Source of the DNA: Stentor roeselii
Taxonomy: Eukaryota; Ciliophora; Heterotrichea; Heterotrichida; Stentoridae
Direction of reading: 5' to 3'
NCBI GenBank assembly: GCA_006503475.1
Contig: RSEH01000001.1
Coordinates: 186,001 to 250,000, forward strand
Length of the DNA: 64,000 bases
Shown: one piece after another, positions 4,903-52,908 of the stretch
Position numbering within the stretch: the first letter of the stretch is position 1
Layout: each line of letters opens with the position of its first letter
Made by a program: the position numbers and the translations under genes
Notes under the pieces: generated by a model
Database searches by the model: none
What the model saw: only the letters and a program-made list of their open reading frames with translations
Told to the model about the DNA's origin: nothing

Positions 4903-5952
4903 TTAATTAAGCCATCTGATGCGCGTTCCGTTCTTCCATTCGCCTTTTTTTTCTTTTTTACCTGGCTCTGTTAGGAAGGCCTCGCCGTGTTGCTTGCCGT
5001 TCCTCCACCCGCCTTTATAGATCTTCCCACCGGGCCAGTAGAAAGTGCCTTGGCCTTCTTTTTTGTCGTTTACGTAACAGCCTTCGTAATATCTCCCGTC
5101 TGGCCATTCAAATCTACCGAATCCGTTCATCTTGCCACCTTTCCATTGGCCTTTGAAGCTTCGGCCGTCACTCCAGATGTAATTTCCTTGTCCTTCCATT
5201 TGGCTGTTTTCAAAACTCCCTTTATACGTTGATCCATCAGGCCAGGTAATAGTTCCAGGTCCACTTTTGATTCCATCAACAAAAGTCGCTTCACAAACAG
5301 CTCCATCTTCCCAAGTTTCAATTCCAGTTCCATGTTGTTTCCCATGAAGCCAGTATCCTTTATACGAGTATTTTTTCAGACTATTGTTTAATTCACCCAT
5401 TCCCGAAAACTTTCCGTTAATAAAGTTCCCTTGATATAAGTCTCCAGTAGCTGAGATAAGCAATCCTTCTCCATCATACTTGCCTTCTTTAATACTTCCT
5501 CGAAAAAACGACTGATCTGGAATAATCAAGTCTCCAATTCCAGTAGTTTGATCATTTTCCAGATTTCCAAGAAAGACTGACCCATTCGGAAAGATTGTTT
5601 CTTGAATTTGAACAGGCTTCGGCAGGTTCTTCGTAACGAGAGGGTCAAGATTCTGAAGATGTGTAAAAATCTCTGCCGGAAGCAGAGACTGAAGATGAGA
5701 GTTCAAAGTTTCTAAAGTTTCTGCTTGGCACTTATGAGCTTGTTTTGATGTTAACTTCGCTCGAGCTTTGTAATGGGCTTTTGTTGTCAGGTATCTTCGA
5801 ACCAAGGCTTGTATGAGGACTTCTGGCTGGTCAAAAACGATTTCGACTTCTTTTGGTCCTTCAAAAACGTCTTTTTCTACCTTTAGACCTGCCTCGACGA
5901 AGGAAAATGTGGGCTGGTCTTCTAGTTTTTGAACACATGCGCAGTTTCCCAT
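4903..5952 (-). CDS. IQ-motif and MORN-repeat protein with lipid-anchor N-terminus
   Basis: This 349-residue protein begins MGNCACVQ, a strong candidate for Gly2 myristoylation plus Cys palmitoylation, so attachment to a membrane is likely. An IQ-like segment, IQALVRRYLTTKAHYK, lies at about residues 47-62 and may bind calmodulin. From about residue 118 to the end there are roughly nine MORN repeats (for example YKGSFENSQMEGQGNY and YEGCYVNDKKEGQGTF). MORN arrays bind membrane or act as scaffolds, and are abundant in ciliate cortical proteins. Specific function unknown. It faces calcineurin B tail to tail, 2 bp apart. Confidence 0.85.
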   Translation of the reverse strand: MGNCACVQKLEDQPTFSFVEAGLKVEKDVFEGPKEVEIVFDQPEVLIQALVRRYLTTKAHYKARAKLTSKQAHKCQAETLETLNSHLQSLLPAEIFTHLQNLDPLVTKNLPKPVQIQETIFPNGSVFLGNLENDQTTGIGDLIIPDQSFFRGSIKEGKYDGEGLLISATGDLYQGNFINGKFSGMGELNNSLKKYSYKGYWLHGKQHGTGIETWEDGAVCEATFVDGIKSGPGTITWPDGSTYKGSFENSQMEGQGNYIWSDGRSFKGQWKGGKMNGFGRFEWPDGRYYEGCYVNDKKEGQGTFYWPGGKIYKGGWRNGKQHGEAFLTEPGKKEKKGEWKNGTRIRWLN

Positions 5953-5979
5953 TGAGTTATTAATTGAAAGTTTATTAGA

Positions 5980-6879
5980 CTAACAGAGAACTATGCTACT
6001 TTTGAACATGTCTTTGCTGTCGAATGGTCTTCGACGTTTGGGAGATACTGGAGCCTTTTCGACTATTAAACCTTGGTACATACGGGAAAAGGAATGAGAA
6101 TCACGGAATTTTCCTTGCTTTGAGGGAGTTTGGTCGAAACTTAGAGGGTTTTTGTCGTAGTAGCTGGAGAATGAGAGAAGAAGTTTCTCTTTCTCGATGC
6201 TTAGGTCGATTTTACCTTTGTTGATAATGCATGGATTAGTCGTTTCAATAATTTTCGAGTTCTTTTCATAGCGATCTTTATTGAGCACCTTGACCTCATT
6301 CTCTTCTTTTGGTCCAGCAGGTAATGTATAAATCTGACTAGTTTTTTTCGCTTTGCTCATCTGAGTGATAACAATTTGTGGTTTCCTACTAACAGGTATC
6401 TGCCCAGTATGAATACCTTGATAAGCTTTAGAAATTCCTTTACTAACCAGTTGACTATCAGTGCTTTCAGCATTTTTTACAACCTGTTTTCCCTTCAGCA
6501 CAACTTTTTTATTAAGTTTTCCAATTTTTTCCTGTGTAGATCCCTGATTAATCATTTGAATGAGATTAGAAGCAACTTCTCCATTCCTCGCATTACGTTC
6601 ATCTCGATTAAAGGCACTTGCAGGTCTTCGAGTAGGTTCATTTGAGAATTCAGGGTTGATGGTCCTTCTGGAAGACTGGTACTCTTTCCATCTCATCGGT
6701 GACTGTTTGATTGTCTTCGCAGGTTCCTGGTCCATCAAAGCAAGTCCATTCCAAAGGGCAGATCGCTGATGGTTCACCTTTTTTGAAAGATTTCCAGTGA
6801 GTTCCTTTACAACTGGGGACTTCTTTTCCTGGGCTTTTATGCACTTCGAGATGTAGTCTTGACTGTAGCTTCTCCTCAT
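5980..6879 (-). CDS. Unknown basic, probably disordered protein
   Basis: I do not recognise this 299-residue protein. It is rich in Lys, Ser, Gln and Asn, has no hydrophobic or transmembrane segment, and shows short basic clusters such as SPKRRRPF near the C-terminus. It has several Ser-Pro and Thr-Pro sites that could be phosphorylated. It lies 27 bp upstream of the IQ/MORN gene on the same strand and 73 bp downstream of a second MORN gene. That suggests, without proving, a shared cortical or cytoskeletal setting. The ORF is long and ends cleanly, so it is probably real. Confidence 0.7.
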   Translation of the reverse strand: MRRSYSQDYISKCIKAQEKKSPVVKELTGNLSKKVNHQRSALWNGLALMDQEPAKTIKQSPMRWKEYQSSRRTINPEFSNEPTRRPASAFNRDERNARNGEVASNLIQMINQGSTQEKIGKLNKKVVLKGKQVVKNAESTDSQLVSKGISKAYQGIHTGQIPVSRKPQIVITQMSKAKKTSQIYTLPAGPKEENEVKVLNKDRYEKNSKIIETTNPCIINKGKIDLSIEKEKLLLSFSSYYDKNPLSFDQTPSKQGKFRDSHSFSRMYQGLIVEKAPVSPKRRRPFDSKDMFKSSIVLC

Positions 6880-27897: not shown

Positions 27898-30800
27898 ATG
27901 AATAAGGGAAAACCTTTTACTTTCAAGACCTCTGATCATGAGAATGTTTCTTTGAATATTTACTCAACAATCACTCCGGAAATGGAAACTTTTGAAAAGT
28001 TATCGAAATTCAAATATGAAGACTTTCAATTTCGATGGAATTGCCTGGTTTTTCTTATTGATCTTTATAACTTTTTCTCTGTTGGATACTTCTTGGGAAT
28101 GATGAACGCTCCTGGGGAAATTTGGCTTGGGCTTGAGATAATTACTGAGTGCATCATGAGTATCGACTTTTTATTGAGAGTGTTTTTGACTAGGTCATCA
28201 AAAACCAACCAGATGTGGTTCATGCACGAATCAACAAATTTAAAGCATTGGTCATTCCTACTTCTATCATCCATTCCTTACTCCAGCCTCTTCACCCTCT
28301 CAGAGTCTCTAGACTCAAAAGCCTTATTAATCTGGAGATCATTAAAACTATTAAGATTATTTCAGTTATCCAAGTTAATCAAGAACATGGAGATGGTGAT
28401 TCCCGAGTCGAAGCTACAGTTTTTAGAGACAATCAAATCAATTCTTCTGATCTTTTTCGTGAGTCACTACTCAGGAATGCTTTACCTGTTAACCTTAAGA
28501 GAATCAGGTCATCTTCCTTCAAAAAACAGTTTCAATTTATACATCGACTCAATCCTCTGGGCTCAAGAAACCTTGACAGGCATAGTCCAAAGCACTTCTT
28601 CAATAAAAGAACAGAACATCGAGATCTTCTCACTGATCATCATGGTCGTCGGAATGATTCTCTACGGTTTTCTATTCATCAAAATCTTCACCTTCCTCGA
28701 AGACCTTTACAAAGAAGACTCTCTTTTCGAGTCCCAGAAGAAGTCAATTGAAACCTGGCTAAAAAGCCGTAAAATCAGTCAAGTTCTTCAAGAAAGAGTC
28801 TCTTCATACTTCCAGATATGCCGAGACTCATGGATTTCCAGTCCTTGCCCTGAAGACCTGCCTTTGTCACTGTTGTCTGAAATCGCAATATTCAGGAATA
28901 GGGACCTGGTCTCTAAGGTAAAGCTCTTTGAATTAGGAGAACCTTCTTTCGTCATGAGTGTCGTTCGTGCACTTGTTCAAGAATATTACTTAGAAGGCGA
29001 TTTTGTCATCAGATATGGAGACCTTGCAAGTCAGATGTACTTTATTAAGACTGGCTTGTTGGAAGTACTCGCTACTGACGGGCAAAGTCGAATCGCTTTG
29101 TTAGAAGACGGGGAATACTTCGGAGAAATCGGGATTTTAATGAAAACTTGTAGAACTGTATCGGTGAAAACTGTTGTTCCTTGTGTTTTAGCAAAAATTT
29201 CAAAGGAAAATCTTTTAAAAATACTTGAAAACTTTGAAGAACATAAAGAATTTTTATTGCAAGTCGCCAGGCAAAGGATGAAAACTTGTAAAAAGGAAGA
29301 TATTGACTTGAAATATGATTTGGTTGAAGATAATTTTTCGTCTTCTGACTCGGATGAGTCTGGTGAACTTGAATGTCCGGCTTATTATGCACCGGCTGAG
29401 CATGAGTTGAAGAAATGGTGGCTTAGGATTATCACTGTGCCCAACAGCAAGACGCAGAAAGGAATCGTTCAGTTTGAACCTTTGTCGCCGTTTTTTTATG
29501 TTTGGACTGGGGTCATGTTGGTTTGTTTTTCTGTTTATGTTTTTATTATTCCTTACTCGGTCGCGTTTCAACCTAATTTTACTGTTTTAGTTCTTGATGG
29601 AATTTCTTATGCTGTCTTTGTTTTTGATGTTTATGTCAATTATCATAGTGCGATTATTAATGAGTTCAGAATTTATGTTCATGATCGTGGAGAGATTCAT
29701 AGAAATTATATGGATCACTATTTTGTGTTTGATGCTCTTGCTATTGTACCAGCTGATTGGATTTATTGTGTATTAGAATGCAGTTCAGTCCCAAACTATA
29801 CATTAAAAGTATTACGATTTTTTAAACTAGCAAGAGTAATAAATCTCCTTAAAACAGTTAGCAAACACAGTGGAATATCCGAAAACTTGATAAAAATTTC
29901 CGTCTACATAATCTCATTTTGTGCATTAGGCCACATAACAGCCTGCTTTTTAGATCGAATCGATACTGTACACGATTCCAGTAATTACATCGAACACCTA
30001 TACTGGACATTTTCTATTTTTTCCCTTTCAAGTTTCGGAGACATTGGAGCGAAAACATTGTCAAGTAAAATAGTTTCAATATTCTTGATGGTCTTTTCAA
30101 AGCTTTTTTACGTTGTTTTATTCGCTGAATGCGTTATTTTCATTAAAGAAAACAATGGAATTTTCATCAGTTTCGTGAAAAAAATCAAAGTTTTGCAGGA
30201 ATGGGTTGAACATTCTGCACTTTCACCAGAAATTAAAGAAAAAATCAACGAATTTTATCTTTTGGAGTGGAATAAGATGAAAGGGGTCCAGGATGATGAG
30301 ATACTTGAAAAACTTCCTGAGTCTTTGTCTACTGACTTGAGACTTGAAATTTTTAGAGGGTTGATTCAAAGCAGGTTTTTTCCTAGTGAGGAAATTGGAG
30401 CGATTTTAGGAGTTATTAGGAAATGCAAGTTGAAAAATGTTACTAAAGGGATTAGTATAGTCAATCGAGGAGAAATAGGCTTAGAGATGTTTTTCATTCT
30501 AGAAGGTTCATTTTCTGTGTATTCCGAAGAGAACTTACTACTCAAACAACTGGGTCCAGGTAGTATATTCGGTGAATTAGCGATATTGGAAGATAATCCA
30601 GGCCTGAGATCAGCAACAGTAACTGCAATAACCGATTCATCATTAGCTAGCCTTTCAGTAGAAGACTACAAAGAAGTCTCCAAGTCTTACCCAGACTTTC
30701 GAGAAAAGGTGAGAAAATATACAAGAGAAAAAAGCATAGAAAGCATATCAGAGCCAATTCACATGATAAGCCTGATAAACGATGAAGATTCAATAAACAG

Positions 30801-33800
30801 CAAAAGCGAGGCAAACGGAAGAATATTCGAAAATATCGAAGACGCTCCATTCGAAAAGACAATAATATCAACAGTCTACCCTGACACCAAAGAAACATCA
30901 AATCAAATCAAATTCAAGCCTCTTGCTCTTAGAATATTCCAAAGCACTTTAAAAGACTGGATCTACTTCACAGTCCTTGTCTGGAACTTGTCCTTTATTC
31001 CTTTACAAGTCGCTTTTGAAATAAAATACTCTGCTTTGCTCATCCTAATTGAAATCCTGGTAGTCATCTTTTACATCATTATAAGTCTTTGCAACTTATT
31101 TATTCTTTCTTACGAGCAAATCAGTTCAAAAAATTCTCGAGTTTTTAACTGTATTTTTTATCTGATAATCGCAGTTCCTGTAGCGATGATTGTCGATTTA
31201 AACGATTTGAAAGGAAGTAAATTTTTGATAGTTTTTTTTTCATATTTACGACTTTTGAACTTTTTCTCAATTTTTTCATTTTTTCATGAATTAAAAGAAA
31301 AAAAGATTTTTTGGTTCTTGACGATTCAGTTCCTTGAAATTCTGACAGTGACTTTTTTGTGTTCTCATGTTGTTGCTTGCTTGTTCATAACAATAGCGAA
31401 TGGTGAGAAGAGCTCTTGGGTTGACTATGCACTTGATGATAGTGATAGTACTGTTTATATCACTGCTTTTTATTGGGCTTTTGGGACTTTGATTCATATG
31501 GTCCAAGGGGACGTCGTTAGTCAATCGGACAATGAAAAACTTTTCACTTGTTTTGTGCAAATTTTCAGTGTTTTTTTCTTTGCTGTCTTGTATGGAGGCC
31601 TCGTCGAGGTCACATCGATATTGGGAAGTAAAATGCGTGGCAAGTTTTATTCCAGTTATTTGTTTGTAATGAAATTCATTGAAAAAAAACATATTCATAG
31701 GTACAAGGGGCCACTTAATGATTACTTCAATTTTATCTGGAAGAGTCAGAAAGGAGTCTTTGATAATTCGATTTTTGAAGGGCTTCCTGAATCTTTGAAA
31801 GTTGATATTTTTGTTGGGAAATATAGAGAGGTGTTGAAAAATAGCGCAATTTTTAATTTTTCTCAAAGTTTTGATTTGCCTTTGCTGAGGTCTATGTACA
31901 GACTTATGAAATTCAGATATAGCATTATCGGCGATGTGATTTTAAGAGTAGATGACTTAACATCCGACCTATATTTTGTCTTAGAAGGAGAAGTTACTAT
32001 AATTTCCATTCAAGGTGACAATGTAATCGGAGTACTCGGTCCAGGCTCTCATTTCGGAGAAGTCACAATTCTCTTTAACACTCCAATAAAAACTGCGACA
32101 GTTGTTTCAACAAAATTTTCTTTATTATTTTATATCAGTGGTTTAGATCTGGAGGTGCTTTTAAACTCTTTTCCTGACTGGAAAGAAGACATGATAAACT
32201 TTTCACAACAGAGACTAATAAAGACCTTTGGAGCAAAAAGCCTTTATGAAGTCTCCGAGATCTGCGAATCAATCTCGAAAGTAATGACAAGTGACTTTCA
32301 ACTAAGTCGAAAATATACTCTTCAGTCAGATATGTTGATTTCTCACAAAATCGCTGATGCCAAAGCCTTAGTTTTTCATGATAAAAGACTTTCTTTGAAT
32401 TTGTTGCATCTGGTGTTGATTATTTACAGTTGTTTTATCATTCCTTTTGAACTTTCATTTTTAACAGAGTACCCTCCATGGATGCTTGCAATGGAAGTCT
32501 TTTGTTTCGTTGAAAGCTGTGTTTATCTGTTCATCCGGATGCAAAACGAGTTAAAACTAAAGATTTCAGATATCTGGGCTTATCGCAATGCATTAATTTA
32601 CGATTTATTAGCAATATCTCCATTCAACTTCATCCTTCCATTATCAGGAGTGAGATCGCCTCGAGGTTTGATAGCATTTATTGACTCCATTCGTTTATTT
32701 TCAGTATTTCGAATCCATTCCTTATTGTCAAGCCTGATGATTTACAACAAGAAGTTCTTTTTATCAATGACGATCTTCGAGACATGCCTTTACTTGTTGA
32801 TTTTTATCAATGGGGTGACCTGTGTATTTCACTTTAACTATTTTTGTTCGACATCAGATGACTATCTATCCTCTCTTTACTTTTCACTGAACATTATCAC
32901 GTTCACAGGACACACTGACGCGTTTCCATGCAGTTTAACACTGATAATCCAAGTTTGTCTTGTTGGTTTTATATCCGCGTCGTCAATTTCACTGTTTTTA
33001 GGTCTTCTTTCCTTGATTTTTTCCAGGTCGCATCTTACTGAATACCAACTTTACCTTGATTCATCTAAACATTTCAAGAAGATCTTAAAAGAATCTCCTC
33101 CTAAATCTTTACAGTATCGAATTGAATGTTATTCCAAGTTCAGTGCAGCTCTTCAGTTCAAATACGGCGAAACCATTGCTAAAGAAATTTTTTCTCATTT
33201 GCCAAGAAACCTGGTGAATGACTTGTTATATGAAAAATCTCGACACATGCTGAAAAAAGTCCCTTTTTTAAAAGAAAGTGGTTCAGATGTCCTTCTTAAA
33301 AGAATCGCTTTGAAGTTGCAGGTCGAAATTTATCTTCCCCAGGACTACCTGATTTACAAAGACGACATCGGAGAAGAAATGTATTTCATCGGAATTGGAT
33401 CAGTTAACATCATCTCTCCAGACAACTCAAAAATAATAAAATCTCTTTTTCAAGGCGATTTCTTCGGGGAAATGGCTTTAATCAACAATTCAAAAAGAAT
33501 GTGTTCAGTCGTTGCAGATACTTTATGTTTGGTTTACTCCTTGCAAAAGAAGGACTTTTATGAAATTCTTCAGAATTTACCTGAAATTCTTGCAAAACTG
33601 AAAAAACAGTCAGAACTTCGATCGAGAGAAACAACGAGTGTCAGTCATTCTGGATTTTTTCCAGGTAGTGAAGAGGAAGAACAGCGAAAACTTTTCAATC
33701 ATTTGAAGATGTACTCGCTTGTCAGCTCTTATTACAATGATTACAGCAAAACAAGGGAAAACTCGTCGTTGTTGACAGGAATGAAGAATATTAAATCGGC

Positions 33801-33981
33801 TACTGCAATTGAAAGCTTTGCGAAGGATAGGTCGGGATTCAAGATATATAAAAGAAGGCCGGGGACTAGGGGTGACGGGGAAAGAAGGAATAGTCAGACT
33901 TCACTTGGAAAAAAACTGGTTTTTGATCGGTTCTCGAGACTCAAGATGAGATGGACGGCAGGTGAAGAGGTTAAAAGTTAA
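27898..33981 (+). CDS. Giant four-module voltage-gated/cyclic-nucleotide-binding channel
   Basis: One 2027-residue chain holds four successive units, each with about six membrane helices followed by a cyclic-nucleotide-binding domain. Units begin near residues 45, 530, 1012 and 1498. The CNBDs lie near 365-445, 848-925, 1340-1425 and 1812-1895. CNBD 2 keeps the full FGELA...RSATV phosphate cassette, CNBD 1 has FGEIG...RTV, CNBD 3 has Lys for Arg, and CNBD 4 is divergent. S4-like segments are clear in units 1 and 2 (RSLKLLRLFQLSK; LKVLRFFKLARV) and weaker in 3 and 4. The pore loops differ: TLTGIVQS, SSFGDI, HMVQGDVV and FTGHTDAF. Only unit 2 resembles a K+ filter. The plan parallels the four-repeat CNGK channels of sperm. 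It is probably a ciliary or plasma-membrane cation channel. Confidence 0.9.
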   Translation: MNKGKPFTFKTSDHENVSLNIYSTITPEMETFEKLSKFKYEDFQFRWNCLVFLIDLYNFFSVGYFLGMMNAPGEIWLGLEIITECIMSIDFLLRVFLTRSSKTNQMWFMHESTNLKHWSFLLLSSIPYSSLFTLSESLDSKALLIWRSLKLLRLFQLSKLIKNMEMVIPESKLQFLETIKSILLIFFVSHYSGMLYLLTLRESGHLPSKNSFNLYIDSILWAQETLTGIVQSTSSIKEQNIEIFSLIIMVVGMILYGFLFIKIFTFLEDLYKEDSLFESQKKSIETWLKSRKISQVLQERVSSYFQICRDSWISSPCPEDLPLSLLSEIAIFRNRDLVSKVKLFELGEPSFVMSVVRALVQEYYLEGDFVIRYGDLASQMYFIKTGLLEVLATDGQSRIALLEDGEYFGEIGILMKTCRTVSVKTVVPCVLAKISKENLLKILENFEEHKEFLLQVARQRMKTCKKEDIDLKYDLVEDNFSSSDSDESGELECPAYYAPAEHELKKWWLRIITVPNSKTQKGIVQFEPLSPFFYVWTGVMLVCFSVYVFIIPYSVAFQPNFTVLVLDGISYAVFVFDVYVNYHSAIINEFRIYVHDRGEIHRNYMDHYFVFDALAIVPADWIYCVLECSSVPNYTLKVLRFFKLARVINLLKTVSKHSGISENLIKISVYIISFCALGHITACFLDRIDTVHDSSNYIEHLYWTFSIFSLSSFGDIGAKTLSSKIVSIFLMVFSKLFYVVLFAECVIFIKENNGIFISFVKKIKVLQEWVEHSALSPEIKEKINEFYLLEWNKMKGVQDDEILEKLPESLSTDLRLEIFRGLIQSRFFPSEEIGAILGVIRKCKLKNVTKGISIVNRGEIGLEMFFILEGSFSVYSEENLLLKQLGPGSIFGELAILEDNPGLRSATVTAITDSSLASLSVEDYKEVSKSYPDFREKVRKYTREKSIESISEPIHMISLINDEDSINSKSEANGRIFENIEDAPFEKTIISTVYPDTKETSNQIKFKPLALRIFQSTLKDWIYFTVLVWNLSFIPLQVAFEIKYSALLILIEILVVIFYIIISLCNLFILSYEQISSKNSRVFNCIFYLIIAVPVAMIVDLNDLKGSKFLIVFFSYLRLLNFFSIFSFFHELKEKKIFWFLTIQFLEILTVTFLCSHVVACLFITIANGEKSSWVDYALDDSDSTVYITAFYWAFGTLIHMVQGDVVSQSDNEKLFTCFVQIFSVFFFAVLYGGLVEVTSILGSKMRGKFYSSYLFVMKFIEKKHIHRYKGPLNDYFNFIWKSQKGVFDNSIFEGLPESLKVDIFVGKYREVLKNSAIFNFSQSFDLPLLRSMYRLMKFRYSIIGDVILRVDDLTSDLYFVLEGEVTIISIQGDNVIGVLGPGSHFGEVTILFNTPIKTATVVSTKFSLLFYISGLDLEVLLNSFPDWKEDMINFSQQRLIKTFGAKSLYEVSEICESISKVMTSDFQLSRKYTLQSDMLISHKIADAKALVFHDKRLSLNLLHLVLIIYSCFIIPFELSFLTEYPPWMLAMEVFCFVESCVYLFIRMQNELKLKISDIWAYRNALIYDLLAISPFNFILPLSGVRSPRGLIAFIDSIRLFSVFRIHSLLSSLMIYNKKFFLSMTIFETCLYLLIFINGVTCVFHFNYFCSTSDDYLSSLYFSLNIITFTGHTDAFPCSLTLIIQVCLVGFISASSISLFLGLLSLIFSRSHLTEYQLYLDSSKHFKKILKESPPKSLQYRIECYSKFSAALQFKYGETIAKEIFSHLPRNLVNDLLYEKSRHMLKKVPFLKESGSDVLLKRIALKLQVEIYLPQDYLIYKDDIGEEMYFIGIGSVNIISPDNSKIIKSLFQGDFFGEMALINNSKRMCSVVADTLCLVYSLQKKDFYEILQNLPEILAKLKKQSELRSRETTSVSHSGFFPGSEEEEQRKLFNHLKMYSLVSSYYNDYSKTRENSSLLTGMKNIKSATAIESFAKDRSGFKIYKRRPGTRGDGERRNSQTSLGKKLVFDRFSRLKMRWTAGEEVKS

Positions 33982-35206
33982 TTATTTCATGACTTACTAT
34001 TCGATTTTCCTCTGTAATTGCAAAAACTTCTAAATTTTCCAAGCAAAAGTCTTGAATTCTCGAACCCTCCAGATTCATCTTCTTCCATCTAAACTTAGAT
34101 CCTTTTTCGAAAGGATTTTTCCAAATCATTATCAGTTCTCCAAGAAGGTTCATCACAATAATCCTTGTCTCATCAAATATAATCATCTTTGAAACAGGAC
34201 AATTCAGTTTTACTTTATCTTCAGCTTCAATTTTAAACCTTTTCTGTCTAACAGAGTCTAAGAAATCATCGCTGGTCAGCGGTATCCTATAAAAAAAAAT
34301 TTTTTTCTCACATGCAAAGATCAACATCGAGTCACTTCCGGACTGAAACGTTTTGATCATTGGTAAACTTCGAAAACTCTTCAGATTCACCGAAAAAATC
34401 ATGAAACAAGCGTCACTGGCAAGTCTGAAAACATAAAGAAGGTAATTTTGTGTGAAAATACAGCACTTGTTATCTACCGGCTCCAAGCTGACCACCACCT
34501 CATCTTCAAGTACCTGAAAAGTCTTCCAAGTAGGAAGAAAAACAGCGGAAACAACATTGTCATTGAAAAGAACTACTAAAAAATTTTCATTATCACAAAG
34601 TTTCAGTTCATTGACTCTACTTTCACTTGAAGAAGTCAAAATGCTTTGAGTCATAAATTTTGACTTGCGAATGGAAAGATCGGCTCGAACCACTTCTCCT
34701 GAACAAGAACCGATAAATAGTGAGTCTGAATTCAAAGATGCAAGAATCATGGTGATTCTTTCGTGGAAATCGATCACTATTTCAATGCAGTTGCTTTGGT
34801 AAGGAATTATGCTGATTGAGTTGAACTTGTCTGAAACTATGCAGGCGCTTTTACCGAATGATATGAATTTTGTCTTGTTTTGAAGAAGTTTATTTCGATT
34901 TGATGAGTTTTCGGCTTCTGGGTCTAGTTGAAGTGAATCTTCTCTTTTTGAGTTGATGTTTAAAATCTTCATTGAAAGGTTTGGGAAGATTGTGTAGAGT
35001 CTGAAGATTTGGTTCTTTTTGTAGCAGTGGAGTTTTGGTGATTTCTTTGAATTTTTCTGGCGTAGATTATCGGATTGATTGGGGGAGTCAAGGTTTGGTT
35101 CTTTTAGATTTGATTGAAAAAAATAGTCTTGATTTGAGTTTTTTGGGTCATAGGCAGTTTGGTTTGAGTCAATATCTGAACTTTGAAAATTTTGTAGCTT
35201 AGACAT
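33971..35206 (-). CDS. Probable beta-propeller protein of unknown function
   Basis: In this 411-residue protein the first 110 or so residues are polar and disordered (rich in Asn, Ser, Gln). The rest alternates short hydrophobic strands with polar turns, for example SLFIGSCSGEVVRADL, FLVVLFNDNVVSAVFL and IIVMNLLGELIMIW. This recalls WD40-like propeller blades without canonical GH and WD pairs. No catalytic motif or membrane segment is visible. The stop codon lies inside the last codons of the convergent giant channel gene, an 11-bp overlap. Confidence 0.68.
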   Translation of the reverse strand: MSKLQNFQSSDIDSNQTAYDPKNSNQDYFFQSNLKEPNLDSPNQSDNLRQKNSKKSPKLHCYKKNQIFRLYTIFPNLSMKILNINSKREDSLQLDPEAENSSNRNKLLQNKTKFISFGKSACIVSDKFNSISIIPYQSNCIEIVIDFHERITMILASLNSDSLFIGSCSGEVVRADLSIRKSKFMTQSILTSSSESRVNELKLCDNENFLVVLFNDNVVSAVFLPTWKTFQVLEDEVVVSLEPVDNKCCIFTQNYLLYVFRLASDACFMIFSVNLKSFRSLPMIKTFQSGSDSMLIFACEKKIFFYRIPLTSDDFLDSVRQKRFKIEAEDKVKLNCPVSKMIIFDETRIIVMNLLGELIMIWKNPFEKGSKFRWKKMNLEGSRIQDFCLENLEVFAITEENRIVSHEIINF

Positions 35207-40454: not shown

Positions 40455-41996
40455 CTATTCACCCTCCTTCAAAAAATCCTCTCCCAATCTGATCCCATTT
40501 TTCCTATTCTTACTGTTCCTGACCCTAAACAAAAAATTCGGAGGAGCAAGTCGCGGGTTATTTTTCTTAACATTCGCCAAATGAATATTTCCAGTTTCAC
40601 ATTTAGGCCAATAAAAATTGCTGAAATTTCTAACATTCCATCCTTTTTCATACTCCTTCCTATTTTCACTCAATCCTCTGCGATGAAGTCTCAAAGGTTT
40701 CTTCAAAGCTTCCTGAAAAAACTCAAAAACCTTTTTCGGTTCCCTTGCACTTCTCCGAGTTTTAACATCTTCAAAAGACGCAGAAATAATATCACTTCTT
40801 TCCAAGTCTCTAAAACGATCATTAAGCCAAATTGAGTCAGTTTTAAGAGTCGATGAAAAAGATTCAAAAAGTTCAGGTTTTACGAGTTTTCCAGCAAAAT
40901 TCGCAGCAGTGATTTGATAAACTTCAGCTGAAGCCGAGTTACAAACACATGAAAAGTTCCTGAAAGGAATTCCATGAATGACTTCTTCAAAGCCGATGAG
41001 TTCTTTTTCTCCTTTGATGACTAGTTCGACTTTATGAAGCCTGGAGCTTCTTTTACTTGAGAAGTTTCTGAGACCTGGAAGGTCTGAAACAGGAGTTTCT
41101 TGTTTTATTGTTCTTGAAAGGGCGAAGTTTCCTTTGCGGATGATGAAGACGTGGCTTGGCGGTTGTCCTTGTTTATAAAGAAACTGTCCTTTTGTGAATA
41201 CTTTTAACTTAAAAAAACCGAGAATTCTTTTTATTTCGTATCGACTCCATTTAACGAAAAGTGTCACTGACTGTAAAAAGTCAAACATTCTTAAAGTCCT
41301 TTCTCTTGAGACCTCTTTTATTACTTTCGCCATCACAGTACTTGAAATACTTGCAACTTGCACATCACTTTTCGCAACTGCATTCATTGTTCGACGTTTC
41401 GAAGGAAAAAGAGCCTCATGTCCAAAATCATGTCCAGGAAGAACAGTTTTAGAAAGTTCATCATTTTCATCGTTATTATTTGATTGAATGATAAATTCAA
41501 CTAGTTCTTGACTTTCATTTTCAAGAGCTTCTTGAGAAATTATTTCATTTTCCCGATTTGGCTCACTTGAAAGTTTCTGAGAAATTTCATATAAAAGCAC
41601 TGGATTGATCGTCACTGCTTTCGACCTCGGCCTGAGAAGTCTGGCAAAGTCTTCATCACTCAGTTCATCTGAAGAGTCATCTGAAGAAGAAAGCTCTGAA
41701 TCTTCTTTTTCTGTTACTTGATACAAAGCGACTTCACCTTTCAAAAGAATAAAAAACTTGTTACTTTGATCACCTTTCGCGTAAATGAACTGGTTTTTTG
41801 TAAAGACTTCTAAAGTTAAGAGGTTTGAGAACTTTTCTTGAACTTGATTCGAGTACTTTGCCCGAAGTCGAGAAAATAATGGGACTGAGTAGGTCAGGTC
41901 TAGAAGTTCTTGATTTTCGAACTCGGAACGAGAGAAAAGAGGCACTGACAGGATCTGAGCGATTCGACTTCCATTGAAAAATATATTCGAAGTCAT
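40455..41996 (-). CDS. Protein with two cyclic-nucleotide-binding domains
   Basis: This 513-residue protein has CNBD 1 beginning near residue 63 (FTKNQFIYAKGDQSNKFFIL). It is interrupted by a long acidic insert (SSDDSSDELSDEDFARLL) before its FGHEALF cassette. CNBD 2 begins near residue 268 (FTKGQFLYKQGQPPSHVFII) and has another insert, then GFEEVIHG in place of the phosphate cassette. Neither domain has a clean FGE...RxA motif, so cyclic nucleotide binding may be lost or altered. The C-terminus is basic. It is not a channel (no membrane helices) and not a PKA regulatory subunit of standard form. It lies 19 bp downstream of the 64-residue gene on the same strand. Confidence 0.83.
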   Translation of the reverse strand: MTSNIFFNGSRIAQILSVPLFSRSEFENQELLDLTYSVPLFSRLRAKYSNQVQEKFSNLLTLEVFTKNQFIYAKGDQSNKFFILLKGEVALYQVTEKEDSELSSSDDSSDELSDEDFARLLRPRSKAVTINPVLLYEISQKLSSEPNRENEIISQEALENESQELVEFIIQSNNNDENDELSKTVLPGHDFGHEALFPSKRRTMNAVAKSDVQVASISSTVMAKVIKEVSRERTLRMFDFLQSVTLFVKWSRYEIKRILGFFKLKVFTKGQFLYKQGQPPSHVFIIRKGNFALSRTIKQETPVSDLPGLRNFSSKRSSRLHKVELVIKGEKELIGFEEVIHGIPFRNFSCVCNSASAEVYQITAANFAGKLVKPELFESFSSTLKTDSIWLNDRFRDLERSDIISASFEDVKTRRSAREPKKVFEFFQEALKKPLRLHRRGLSENRKEYEKGWNVRNFSNFYWPKCETGNIHLANVKKNNPRLAPPNFLFRVRNSKNRKNGIRLGEDFLKEGE

Positions 41997-44827: not shown

Positions 44828-47197
44828 TTAACTATTATTCAATAAACTCTCTAACCTCGAAACAATATCATAAAAATCAAGTCTATTTCCCGGATTTTCT
44901 TCACAACACCTAGCAACCAAATCCTTCAAATCATTTGAATATTCTCCTTGAATCAAATCAACATTAAGTCTATCAATAATTTGTTTATTTAGCTTTTCAA
45001 TGTAAATCTGTCTTTCTAGAGGTTCCGCAAAAATTTCCCACAAAACAATAGAGTAAGAAAAGACATCGCAAGCGGTAGTATAAAATTTTCCAGATTTAAC
45101 CTCAGGGGCCATCCATCCAAAAGTTCCAACTCGATTAGTCATTCGGTTGATGCCTTCTATTCGAGATAAGCCGAAATCAGTTATCTTTACAATTGGTTCT
45201 TCATTTATATTCAAAACTTGCTTGCTGATGAGAATGTTCTCACTTTTAAGGTCTCGATGAAGAATTGGTGGACTTTGGCTATGCATAAAAAGCATGGCTT
45301 TAGCGATGTCTAAAGCGATTTTGAGTTTTGATCTGGAAGAGATTTTGTTGTAGAAAAGAAATTTGTCTAAAGATCCTTCTTTGCAGTATTCGTATATGAG
45401 ATTTAGTTGATCGTATTCATCATAGAAGTAACCTAAAAATTTTACGATATTAGGATGTTGTAATCTGGAATTTGATAAAATTTCTCGCTCTAAATATTTT
45501 TTATCAACAAAATTATTAATAAAAACCTTTACTGCTACTTCTTCGTTATTTAAAATTCCTTTAAGAACCTTAGAAGTCGATCCAGATCCCAGCTCATCTT
45601 CAGAGATAATGATTTGAGCTGGATCGATTTTCATCTCTTCTAATTTTCCAGCATGTATAGAATCTCTATGAATGCAAATTTCTAGAGTTAGAGGAACTGA
45701 AACTTGAAAATCAATAAAAGGAAACCTATTGTAAATTGTTTGAAGTTTCCTTGAAAAGATAATTCTTGCACTAATTAAGTTATTTTTAAATTCACCTAAG
45801 TTTATAATATTTTTCATTAAGTAAGAGTAAATAATTAGTATTTCATTCACAACAGATTCAGTAATATTACCAAAAAAATTTAAAACTTCTTTTTGACTTA
45901 ATACTTTCGATAAAAACCTTATCAAATGACCCAAATACTTTAAAATCATCTCAGAATACTCATTAAAACAATCCAATTTCCAACAAGTTCCAATATCCAC
46001 ATTAAAACTCCCAATTAATTCATACTTATCCCTCAAAATCCCCAAATAACTCTCCAGAAAATTATCCTGTCCAACAAATTTTCTATAAAACTTCTCAATT
46101 TTCTGTTTAATCTCTAAAAATTTCTCTCTATAAGCTAAAGTATTTACTTTCAGCGAATAAGAATGAATAAGCCAAACAGCCTTCAAAGCTTTTTCCTGAG
46201 AATCAATTTTTTTCTTTACAAGACATCCAAAAAACTTAGAAAAACTTGCCGGGTCTGCAGTTTTTTCCAGAAGTTTCTGAAAATATCTGGGATTAGGAAC
46301 ATCTCTCGAGTTTAAAATAGAAGAAATTAAAGAATCAGTTGATTTATTTAAAAATTCAGTGATTTTCGAGAATTGCTGAGGAACTGATGTGAAAACTTGT
46401 TTAATTGCATCAAGACTTCCTCTAAGCATCGGGTCGATAATAAAGCAAAGTTTGAAAACTCTTCGAAAAATCGGATTTTGCTCGTTTTCAACAAGTGCTT
46501 GTTTTTCATCGTCGAATTTATCTAAAGTCTCTGAAGGGTGAAGGATTTTAAATAAAATACATCCTAAGCTCCAGATGTCGACTGCTGGGCTGATGTTGTA
46601 TCCGTGCTTTATTAGTTCTGGGGCCTTGAAATGTTTGTTTTGAATTGAAATACGTTTTTTCAGCTTTGATGCTTCAAGGTTAAGATCTTCTAGATTAAGA
46701 GAGTTTTCGAATCCGATGATTTTTAACTTCAGGTCTTTGTTTATGAAGATTGTTTCGAGATTTAAACAAGAGTGAATCAGTTGTTTTTCATGGACTTGCT
46801 TTAGAAGGGTTATTAAAGGAATGATTAAACTTTGGGGATCTATTGATACTTTTTGCTTTAAGTAAGAAGATAGGGGCAGAAAGTCTTTTAAGGTGTAGAT
46901 TAGGAAGTGCTTGTTGTTTAGTTCGACTTTTTCTAGGATTTGAAGAGAAATCTTTTGCTTTTCGTTTATTTGGGTTAGGATTTTTATTTCTTTTTCTATG
47001 GATTTTTCGGGAGATTTTGTGTTGTAGAGTTTTACTAGGTAGAAAGTTTCACGCTTCTTGTAGATGTAGTTTATCAGGTTTGGCGTTGATGGAAGGTTTT
47101 GGTGGAATTCTAGAGTATGATCTCTTGTAGTTAGACACATGCTTGCATTAATCAAGCTCCATGAATTTCTGTTTTCCATATATATAATGTTCTTCAT
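44828..47197 (-). CDS. Tandem pseudokinase and TKL-type protein kinase
   Basis: The product is 789 residues from the ATG at 47197; a second ATG at 47179 gives MENRNSW. The N-terminal half is kinase-like but lacks key residues. The catalytic loop is HSCLNLETIFI instead of HRDLKxxNxL and the DFG site reads IIGFENS, yet APELIKHGYNISPAVDIWSLG is normal, so it is a pseudokinase. The C-terminal half is complete: GSGSTSKVLKG, VAVKVF, HRDLKSENILI, ITDFGLSR, GWMAPEVKSGKFYTTACDVFSYS. This resembles TKL kinases (Raf/MLK type). The layout echoes the regulatory pairing in JAK kinases, though unrelated in origin. Confidence 0.87.
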   Translation of the reverse strand: MKNIIYMENRNSWSLINASMCLTTRDHTLEFHQNLPSTPNLINYIYKKRETFYLVKLYNTKSPEKSIEKEIKILTQINEKQKISLQILEKVELNNKHFLIYTLKDFLPLSSYLKQKVSIDPQSLIIPLITLLKQVHEKQLIHSCLNLETIFINKDLKLKIIGFENSLNLEDLNLEASKLKKRISIQNKHFKAPELIKHGYNISPAVDIWSLGCILFKILHPSETLDKFDDEKQALVENEQNPIFRRVFKLCFIIDPMLRGSLDAIKQVFTSVPQQFSKITEFLNKSTDSLISSILNSRDVPNPRYFQKLLEKTADPASFSKFFGCLVKKKIDSQEKALKAVWLIHSYSLKVNTLAYREKFLEIKQKIEKFYRKFVGQDNFLESYLGILRDKYELIGSFNVDIGTCWKLDCFNEYSEMILKYLGHLIRFLSKVLSQKEVLNFFGNITESVVNEILIIYSYLMKNIINLGEFKNNLISARIIFSRKLQTIYNRFPFIDFQVSVPLTLEICIHRDSIHAGKLEEMKIDPAQIIISEDELGSGSTSKVLKGILNNEEVAVKVFINNFVDKKYLEREILSNSRLQHPNIVKFLGYFYDEYDQLNLIYEYCKEGSLDKFLFYNKISSRSKLKIALDIAKAMLFMHSQSPPILHRDLKSENILISKQVLNINEEPIVKITDFGLSRIEGINRMTNRVGTFGWMAPEVKSGKFYTTACDVFSYSIVLWEIFAEPLERQIYIEKLNKQIIDRLNVDLIQGEYSNDLKDLVARCCEENPGNRLDFYDIVSRLESLLNNS

Positions 47198-50842: not shown

Positions 50843-52908
50843 ATGAACTGTTCACAATGTAACCAAGGCGCTGCCTTCCTTTGTCTCTACTGCTCAAATA
50901 TAAAACTCTGTTTATTTCACTTCGCGGACCATTTAGCCCGAAACGAGAGCCATAAATTCAAAAAGTTGACATCATCCTTAGAAGATCCAGAAAGATCAAT
51001 ATTAAACAAAGAGCTCTCAAAAAGACTCTCTCTTCTCAAATCTCTAAAAGACTCTCTAACAACCGAGACCTCAAAAGTAATAAAAACAATATGCGACTTC
51101 AGCATATCACAGATAAACACCATAAATAACTACATCCAATACTACAGAAGTTTACAGAAAAAAACTGAATTCATCTCAAAAGAACTCGAAGAAATAAGAA
51201 ATATTTTAAATACTAATTTGAAAACTCATCCTCTAAACTTAAACAACTTGACAGAAGAGGTAAAAAAGTTTTACTCTCATCAATTCCTAACTTTAGACCA
51301 TGACCTAAAAAAACAGTCAATTTTGATTGAAAAGAAATTCCTTCAGAATCATTCAGGATCTTTGTTGTGTCTGGATATTTCCAATGATGGAAGCAAAGCG
51401 ATTACAGGATCTTCTGATACAACTTTAAGGATTTGGGATGTTTTTAATAAGGTGCAAATCGCTTGCTTGACTGGACATAAAGCTTCTGTTTCGTGTGTTA
51501 CTCTTAGTCGTGACTAGTCGTTAGCTATCAGCGGGTCTCATGATAAAAGTATCAGGATCTGGGATCTTAAAAAGTTGAGTCTGAAAAAAGTATCAAGGCG
51601 ACATTTAGGACCTGTTTCTTTTGTCAAGTTTACCAAAGATGAAGATTTTATCATTACTGGATCTTTTTTAAAAGAAATTTTTATTTGGGGGTCTGCGATG
51701 GATGAATTGATAGAAAAAATTTCATTGAATGAAATTATTGTTTCGGAATTTGTTAGTCCTAAAATGAGTTGATTATTGGCACAAGAATGAATCTGTATAA
51801 ATATAATTTGGAAACTTTTAGTATTGATTACTCATTTAAAGCTCATGATGATGCAATTGGATCCATAGTTACAACTGAAAGTAATAAGTTTATTATTTCT
51901 GGTTCTAAAGATTGCCTGATAAAGGTTTGGGATAATGTTTCAATGAAACTCTATTCTTGTCTAGGAGGCCACAGTGATGAAATAATTTCTATATCTGTGA
52001 CCTCAGATGATGCAAAACTTGTTTCTAGTTCACAAGACATGTCAATTATTCTCTGGCACCTTGAATCAGGGTCAATTATTCACAAGTTTACGAATAACCT
52101 AGGCAGGGTTTGGGAAGTTCAAACTAAAAACGATTTAATATTATCAGTATCAGAAGAAGGTAGAATTGGAGTTTCTAAAATTTCTACGAAAAAATTTGAA
52201 TATTTCATCTCAGTTCGAAGTTTTACTGCCGAGTCTCAAAGCCTTAAAGGTCAATTAGTTGCTTTTGGAAGATTCAATGATGTTATTATTTGGGACTTTC
52301 TTAATGACCATGAAACAGTACTTAAAGGTCATAGTTTTATTGTTAGCAGTTTGTGTTTATCATCCAATAAGAAATTCTTGATAAGTTGCTCATTTGGTCA
52401 GAAAAATAATGTGATCCTTTGGGATCTTACACAAAACAATAACTCTTATTCACTAAACGGCCATCACAGTTCAGTGTTATGTGTTGACATTTCAGAAAAC
52501 GAAAGCTTCGCCTTAACAGGAGATGATTTAGGGTATCTAATAATTTGGAACATCACAAATTTTAGCCAAGAGTGCATATTTCAAGGGCACACTGAAAAAG
52601 TGACTACTGTGAAAATATCTCATAACCAATGCTTTGCTGCATCAGCTGGAAATGATAAAACTGTAATCATTTGGAATATTCGAACGAAAAATCTATATAC
52701 TTGCTTTTATGGACATCAATTACATATCGAGAAGGTTTTCTTTACGGAAGATGATAAATTTATTGTTTCTATCGCGAAATTCGAAGGGTTTATCATCTGG
52801 AGTCTTGATGAAAAAAATATGAAACATTTCTTTCAGAATTTAGATGAGTCAAAAGAATGGCTGGCTTCGAATAAAGATTTGAAGAAAATAATAGAAAGGT
52901 TTGTTTAG
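50843..52908 (+). pseudogene. B-box-like/coiled-coil/WD40 gene with two disruptions
   Basis: From the ATG at 50843 (MNCSQCNQGAAFLCLYCSN) a zinc finger and coiled coil lead into WD40 repeats (LRIWDVFNK, IRIWDLKK, IKVWDN, IILWHLES, VIIWDFLN, VILWDLTQ, LIIWNITN, VIIWNIRT). The frame has a TAG at 51515-51517, exactly where a residue is needed in a blade. A one-base frame change follows near 51764-51771, after which 379 codons are open to 52908. Apart from these two lesions the protein would be about 688 residues. A recent pseudogene, an assembly error or recoding are all possible. A 15-nt GT..AG spanning the TAG exists but would shorten the blade. Confidence 0.6.

Follow-up and report, generated by a model that had tools for sequence, protein, structure and literature searches.

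Which ions, if any, pass through a channel that has the complete plan of a four-repeat cyclic-nucleotide-binding domain (CNBD) channel and a canonical K+ filter in none of its repeats? The question is raised by an open reading frame (ORF) of the ciliate Stentor roeselii, located at 27898-33981 on the plus strand of a 64,000-nucleotide stretch of contig RSEH01000001.1 (positions 186,001 to 250,000; assembly GCA_006503475.1). This stretch is the whole of the DNA analyzed and is referred to below as the window. Pfam and codon analysis identify the 2027-amino-acid product as a four-repeat CNBD channel. We put the probability at about one half that it is a cation channel gated by cyclic nucleotide, with an asymmetric filter that does not select K+, as its predicted protein sequence suggests.

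Four repeats and four unlike filters

The channel ORF begins with an ATG at 27898 and ends with a TAA at 33979-33981, and its 2027 codons include no internal stop. At the base composition of the window, the log10 probability of an open frame of this length by chance is about -65. When codon usage was modeled on 14 further ORFs of the window, this frame had the top score in 19 of 19 segments of 600 nt. The single 6-kb ORF put forward by an earlier, sequence-only reading of this DNA is thus present at 27898-33981, uninterrupted and with even codon bias. On these same two properties of the predicted gene, the reading as two genes taken for one was rejected.

Searched as a whole (Pfam, E<=1, single stretches included), the chain matches Ion_trans in four stretches (E 8.1e-21) and cNMP_binding in four stretches (E 2e-67), which bears out the earlier claim of four channel units, each with a CNBD. 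With boundaries set by the analyst, the repeats span amino acids 28-493 (R1, 27979-29376), 522-965 (R2, 29461-30792), 1005-1464 (R3, 30910-32289), and 1485-1916 (R4, 32350-33645); these and all features within them lie on the plus strand. R1 comprises a six-transmembrane (6TM) domain, pore loop, C-linker, and CNBD, as traced by phmmer and a structure model. R2 and R3 are identified by phmmer and by Pfam matches to both Ion_trans and cNMP_binding (R3 also by a model), and R4 by phmmer alignment to the bacterial channel SthK. When the repeats are scanned alone (E<=0.01), all four match cNMP_binding (E 1.2e-12 to 2.1e-18) and two match Ion_trans (R2, 5.1e-8; R3, 1.8e-8). NCBIfam matches are weak, confined to the CNBDs, and all far under the cut-offs. 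Identity between repeats is 22-28% in local alignments with slightly different boundaries, and all six pairs score 21-33 standard deviations above shuffled sequences (100 shuffles). The defining features of the CNBD superfamily are found, namely a 6TM domain with a pore loop (on the whole-chain matches and on phmmer alignments through the pore of all four repeats) and, after S6, a C-linker and CNBD. By analogy with the architecture of the family, the chain would be a complete CNBD-type cation channel, with its four 6TM-C-linker-CNBD repeats arranged round one central pore.

The pore loop aligns without gaps to solved bacterial channels in every repeat (two or three phmmer alignments each). These alignments place the filters at GIVQST in R1 (amino acids 228-233, 28579-28596), LSSFGD in R2 (710-715, 30025-30042), HMVQGD in R3 (1200-1205, 31495-31512), and FTGHTD in R4 (1669-1674, 32902-32919). 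The canonical filter, [TS][VIT]G[YF]GD, occurs in none of the four repeats as against 54 of 54 bacterial homologues, a set that shows the bacterial norm and not the eukaryotic range because it comprises bacteria only and was assembled mostly with queries that themselves have the canonical filter. Among these homologues the filter is TVGYGD in 26, TIGYGD in 22, TVGFGD in 3, and TIGFGD, TTGYGD, or SVGYGD in 1 each. The set derives from 18 loci, all bacterial, found by scanning genome_contigs, and from two phylum searches (E<=1e-30), which matched 59 of 296 and 16 of 395 genomes and gave 30 and 16 loci. Sixty-one of the 64 loci matched the L001 channel (tblastn, 1e-15); once 3 duplicates and another 4 sequences, short or incompletely read, had been dropped, 54 distinct proteins were left, which are homologues by tblastn match.

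Taken as rings of the pore, from R1 to R4, the filter positions are filled as follows. The Thr position holds Gly, Leu, His, and Phe; the Val position Ile, Ser, Met, and Thr; and the first Gly position Val, Ser, Val, and Gly, so that Gly is present only in R4. The Tyr position holds Gln, Phe, Gln, and His, the second Gly position Ser, Gly, Gly, and Thr (Gly only in R2 and R3), and the Asp position Thr, Asp, Asp, and Asp. The triplets at the site of the K+-channel GYG are therefore VQS, SFG, VQG, and GHT. All four pore strings listed in the sequence-only reading (TLTGIVQS, SSFGDI, HMVQGDVV, and FTGHTDAF) are present, and its proposal of unlike loops in a pore that may not select K+ agrees with the absence of canonical filters from the predicted protein. 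Its further claim that one loop resembles a K+ filter is too generous, as LSSFGD of R2 is also non-canonical, lacking the Thr and the first Gly. Weaver GIRK2, in which Ser replaces the first Gly of GYG just as in R2, is said to have lost K+ selectivity. Significant departures from TVGY/FG are called rare among eukaryotic CNBD and Kv-like channels in the available text of one survey, where the clade-level exception is animal CNG channels (TIGE), with plant CNGC channels named alongside (PMC7576140). The T-I-G-E filter of animal CNG channels is described as non-selective and Ca2+-permeable (PMC12375067, excerpt), and the AND or GQ-type triplets of plant CNGC channels are thought to confer some Ca2+ selectivity (PMC7830781).

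The repeats also differ in their S4 helices and CNBDs. S4 carries four Lys or Arg residues in R1 (28330-28377; R-K-R-Q-K, every third position), five in R2 (29800-29853), one in R3 (31234-31287), and two together with one Asp in R4 (32674-32730), as counted on S4 strings picked by the analyst. This charge asymmetry (4-5 in R1 and R2 versus 1-2 in R3 and R4) is absent from the sequence-only reading. The CNBDs lie at 28981-29232 in R1 (phosphate cassette 29119-29166), 30433-30684 in R2 (30568-30621), 31930-32166 in R3 (32053-32103), and 33331-33576 in R4 (33463-33513). The FGE of the cassette is identical in all four. At the cassette position of the ligand-binding Arg, R1, R2, and R4 keep Arg and R3 has Lys, in line with the unequal cassettes noted earlier. 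This Arg is described as crucial for cyclic-nucleotide binding (PMC4749565, in the part available).

The best solved match of every repeat in phmmer is a CNBD channel. R1 matches 5v4s (2.1e-30) and SthK (2.1e-29), R2 matches 5v4s (1.5e-31) and KCNH2 (1.9e-29), and R3 and R4 match SthK (1.1e-23 and 1.8e-30), with the R4 alignment extending from before S4 through the CNBD. The title of 5v4s, presumably LliK, is that of a prokaryotic cyclic nucleotide-gated channel. AlphaFold2 models were made of R1 and R3, each as a single repeat, with a mean predicted local distance difference test score of 76.9 (14 rows) and 74.2 (13 rows), respectively, and a predicted TM-score (pTM) of 0.50. Both models show the helices of the transmembrane domain and of the C-linker, the strands of the CNBD, and, in the pore region, a helix that gives way to a non-helical segment where the filter lies. 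The best Foldseek match is HCN3 for the R1 model (E 1.0e-21) and CNG chains for the R3 model (E 7.1e-18), and the 50 PDB matches listed per model are HCN, CNG, KCNH, plant AKT1, SKOR, or GORK, or bacterial CNBD channels. These E-values are not independent of the phmmer results because sequence letters enter them. Query-normalized TM-scores among the listed matches are 0.37-0.53 and root-mean-square deviations 10-20 A; the models therefore identify the family, with the orientation of the domains unreliable.

Conduction, gating, and alternative readings

If the product is a cyclic-nucleotide-gated cation channel, then by family precedent cytosolic cyclic nucleotide would bind the CNBDs of R1, R2, and R4, where the ligand Arg is retained, and the C-linkers would pull the S6 gate open. 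The filter, made of four unlike loops, would pass Na+ and probably Ca2+ without selecting K+, and the outcome would be depolarization of the cell or entry of Ca2+. Voltage sensing, if any, would fall to R1 and R2, with R3 and R4 nearly mute, to judge from the S4 counts. K+ selectivity is not expected because VQS, SFG, VQG, and GHT occupy the GYG site. Retention of the channel and ligand functions is argued from the invariant FGE and from a pore loop, S6, and C-linker that can be aligned in all repeats, whereas loss of selectivity is argued from the fact that the residues changed in all repeats are those that make K+ selectivity. A non-GYG filter is known in CNBD channels to go with a non-selective, often Ca2+-permeable pore (animal CNG, PMC12375067; plant CNGC, PMC7830781) or else with a dead one (HCNL1, PMC10651576). 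The channel probably passes ions other than K+, and loss of central conduction is less likely. A two-fold pore can be entertained tentatively, in which a new filter chemistry would select Na+ or Ca2+, R1 and R2 would sense voltage, R3 and R4 would be voltage-mute, and the R3 CNBD would be retired. In such a pore the opposite loops would be alike (IVQS of R1 and MVQG of R3; SSFG of R2 and TGHT of R4), giving a predicted Gln-aromatic-Gln-aromatic ring at the Tyr position.

Several observations weigh against a conducting, ligand-gated channel. Leu, His, and Phe at the innermost filter position could plug the pore, and HCNL1 is an example of a changed filter that goes with loss of conduction through the center (PMC10651576, in the text available). 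Intact CNBDs need not gate, as zebrafish DrCNGK is described as gated by pH (PMC4749565, likewise), and the ligand Arg is itself replaced by Lys in R3. Ion_trans is unmatched at E<=0.01 when R1 and R4 are scanned alone; both are taken as channel domains because of the whole-chain Pfam matches and of phmmer alignments that run through the pore to solved channels, and R1 also because of its model. The models reach a pTM of 0.50 and query-normalized TM-scores of just 0.37-0.53 among the 50 matches listed for each. No orthologues were found in viral_contigs by whole-protein and repeat-alignment scans.

One alternative is a channel that, like zebrafish HCNL1, no longer conducts through its center. 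The protein might sense voltage or cyclic nucleotide and signal by a change of shape, or leak ions or protons through the charge-poor S4 domains of R3 and R4, whose S4 charges number one and two. Altered filters in all four repeats fit such a protein, and its strongest point is the bulky Leu, His, and Phe in place of the filter Thr in R2-R4. In HCNL1, according to the portion of the report available, the canonical pore is made non-functional by changes in the filter, the CNBD is probably inactivated by the lack of an Arg, and the voltage-sensing domain conducts protons (PMC10651576). However, the pore loop, S6, and C-linker of the Stentor channel can be aligned throughout, and the filter Asp is kept in R2, R3, and R4. 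A conducting channel seems likelier than a dead pore because HCNL1 also lacks the CNBD Arg, which is kept here in three of four CNBDs; a dead pore is rather unlikely. The same FGE (4/4) and Arg (3/4) speak against a channel that conducts but is not gated by cyclic nucleotide through its CNBDs, and that opens instead in response to pH, voltage, or an intrinsic ligand in the manner of DrCNGK or KCNH. What favors it is that DrCNGK has four CNBDs yet is gated by internal pH (PMC4749565), that cyclic-nucleotide binding by the CNBDs of KCNH is weak (PMC7576140), both as stated in the sections available, and that S4 carries four charges in R1 and five in R2. Such gating is decidedly unlikely.

A CNGK-like channel that prefers K+ in spite of its degenerate filter would account for the four-repeat 6TM-CNBD layout, which CNGK channels share (PMC7576140 and PMC4749565, as excerpted), and for the FGD kept in R2. 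It is improbable given that TxG(Y/F)G occurs in none of the repeats, with the first Gly of GYG confined to R4 and the second to R2 and R3, whereas the pores of CNGK channels are given as GYG or GFG (PMC4749565, same excerpt). Least probable is a decaying gene with pores eroded under relaxed constraint. Very divergent repeats (4.0-6.8 changes per column) and four unlike filters could be read in that way, but 2027 codons remain open with even codon bias and motifs outside the filter are retained.

Repeat history and surrounding genes

The order in which the repeats arose was addressed with an IQ-TREE phylogeny of the four repeats and 27 of the 54 bacterial proteins, for which the program warns of long branches and unlike composition. 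The best tree joins R1, R2, and R3 (95/92) and places R4 among the bacterial rows, with end branches of 4.0-6.8 changes per column for the repeats. Holding all four repeats together is not rejected (p value of the approximately unbiased test, p-AU, 0.269). The kinship of CNGK repeats used for comparison pairs 1 with 3 and 2 with 4; neither R1+R3 (p-AU 0.207) nor R2+R4 (0.116) is rejected when held together. R2 and R3 form a pair in the best tree at low support (85/40), and the other five pairs are not rejected (p-AU 0.116-0.414). Column bootstraps differ by domain, with 13|24 for the P-loop (83%; a pairing examined only after the letters were seen), 14|23 for the CNBD (85%), and a leaning toward 12|34 for the voltage-sensing domain (60%).

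No paralogue of the channel was found elsewhere in the window (tblastn, E<=0.01). On the minus strand at 40455-41996, 6.5 kb from the channel, lies an ORF for a 513-amino-acid protein in which Pfam detects three CNBD stretches and, at E<=0.001, nothing else; by these matches it is predicted to be a second cyclic-nucleotide-binding protein of the window. A convergent ORF (33971-35206, minus strand) without Pfam matches at E<=0.001 overlaps the 3' end of the channel ORF by 11 bases (33971-33981). Genetic code table 6 was tried and rejected; it would lengthen the channel ORF to 34356, running over this neighbor. Table 4 leaves the channel ORF unchanged. The stops of 15 long window ORFs are TAA in 8, TAG in 7, and TGA in none. 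Stop usage in Stentor coeruleus is given as 60/31/9%, with UGA at about 9% (PMC6879139, in part), and the absence of TGA here fits that usage without being proof of it.

Other parts of the window hold further genes. A 789-amino-acid protein with two protein-kinase stretches (Pfam) is encoded at 44828-47197 on the minus strand. At 4903-6879 (minus strand), a single TAG lies between two ORFs of the same frame, and the next ATG follows 27 bases later; these are either tightly spaced genes or a pair linked by read-through. Adjoining ORFs at 50843-51517 and 51787-52908 (plus strand), each with WD40 matches, may be two parts of a single gene interrupted by an intron or a frameshift. The window yielded no tRNA (ARAGORN) and no Rfam match at gathering score. 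Introns of Blepharisma are described as mostly 15-16 bp (PMC9942806, in part); length counts of GTA..TAG in the window have no clear 15-16 nt peak, a first scoring scan of the window gave a single candidate of 17 nt, and a second gave seven candidates, one of 16 nt and none of 15 nt.

Relation to known CNBD channels

CNGK channels, described from sea urchin and zebrafish sperm and from choanoflagellates, have four 6TM-CNBD repeats per chain, and four such repeats in one polypeptide are found in the Stentor channel. Reports place CNGK in metazoans and choanoflagellates (PMC7576140 and PMC4749565, in the parts available). The likeness extends to unequal CNBDs, as repeat 2 of DrCNGK is described as lacking the conserved Arg (PMC4749565). 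In contrast to the GYG or GFG of CNGK pores in that description, none of the four Stentor repeats has either triplet. The channel is not classed as CNGK because this defining pore was looked for and found in none of the repeats. ApCNGK is reported to be opened by a single cGMP on its third CNBD (PMC4749565, same text); this division of labor is not simply transferable because the third CNBD of the Stentor channel lacks the Arg. Two-repeat protist tandem channels are likewise tandem 6TM-CNBD proteins with specialized repeats, but they have two repeats and, in the survey text available, a generally conserved filter motif (PMC7576140).

The bacterial CNBD K+ channels SthK and 5v4s are the top solved matches, with the pore loop in register, and differ in their single-repeat subunits and GYG filters. 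Plant CNGC and animal CNG channels resemble the Stentor channel in having non-K+ filters in CNBD channels, and the GQN, GQG, and GQS of plant CNGC channels place Gln at the Tyr position, as do VQS in R1 and VQG in R3. They differ as single-repeat tetramers, and the plant CNGC combination of a single repeat with a GQN, GQG, GQS, or AND triplet is not found among VQS, SFG, VQG, and GHT. Neither is the HCN/KCNH combination of a G(Y/F)G filter on a single-repeat subunit. The four-domain Cav, Nav, and NALCN channels have four repeats without CNBDs, whereas each repeat here has one. Zebrafish HCNL1 is likewise a CNBD channel with an altered filter and S4, but it is described as a single repeat that passes protons through its voltage-sensing domain and has a non-functional central pore (PMC10651576, excerpt).

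The architecture is already known from CNGK, and what is new is the pore. In the survey by Pozdnyakov and colleagues, in the portion available, ciliates yielded no tandem channels (PMC7576140), and no report of a four-repeat CNBD channel in ciliates was found in the open-access literature; an annotated orthologue may well be in the databases already. In the available text of that survey, the four-repeat CNBD channels known so far are K+ channels and belong to animals and choanoflagellates (PMC7576140). The Stentor channel, with four repeats and a canonical filter in none of them, suggests a wider origin or spread of the architecture and its release from K+ selectivity. Because each repeat occurs once per chain, the roles of individual repeats (filter quarter, voltage sensor, and CNBD) would be separable without mixing of subunits. 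The light response of Stentor has been linked to cyclic GMP, and the channel is a candidate, and no more than that, for this response (PMC4588039, as far as the available text goes).

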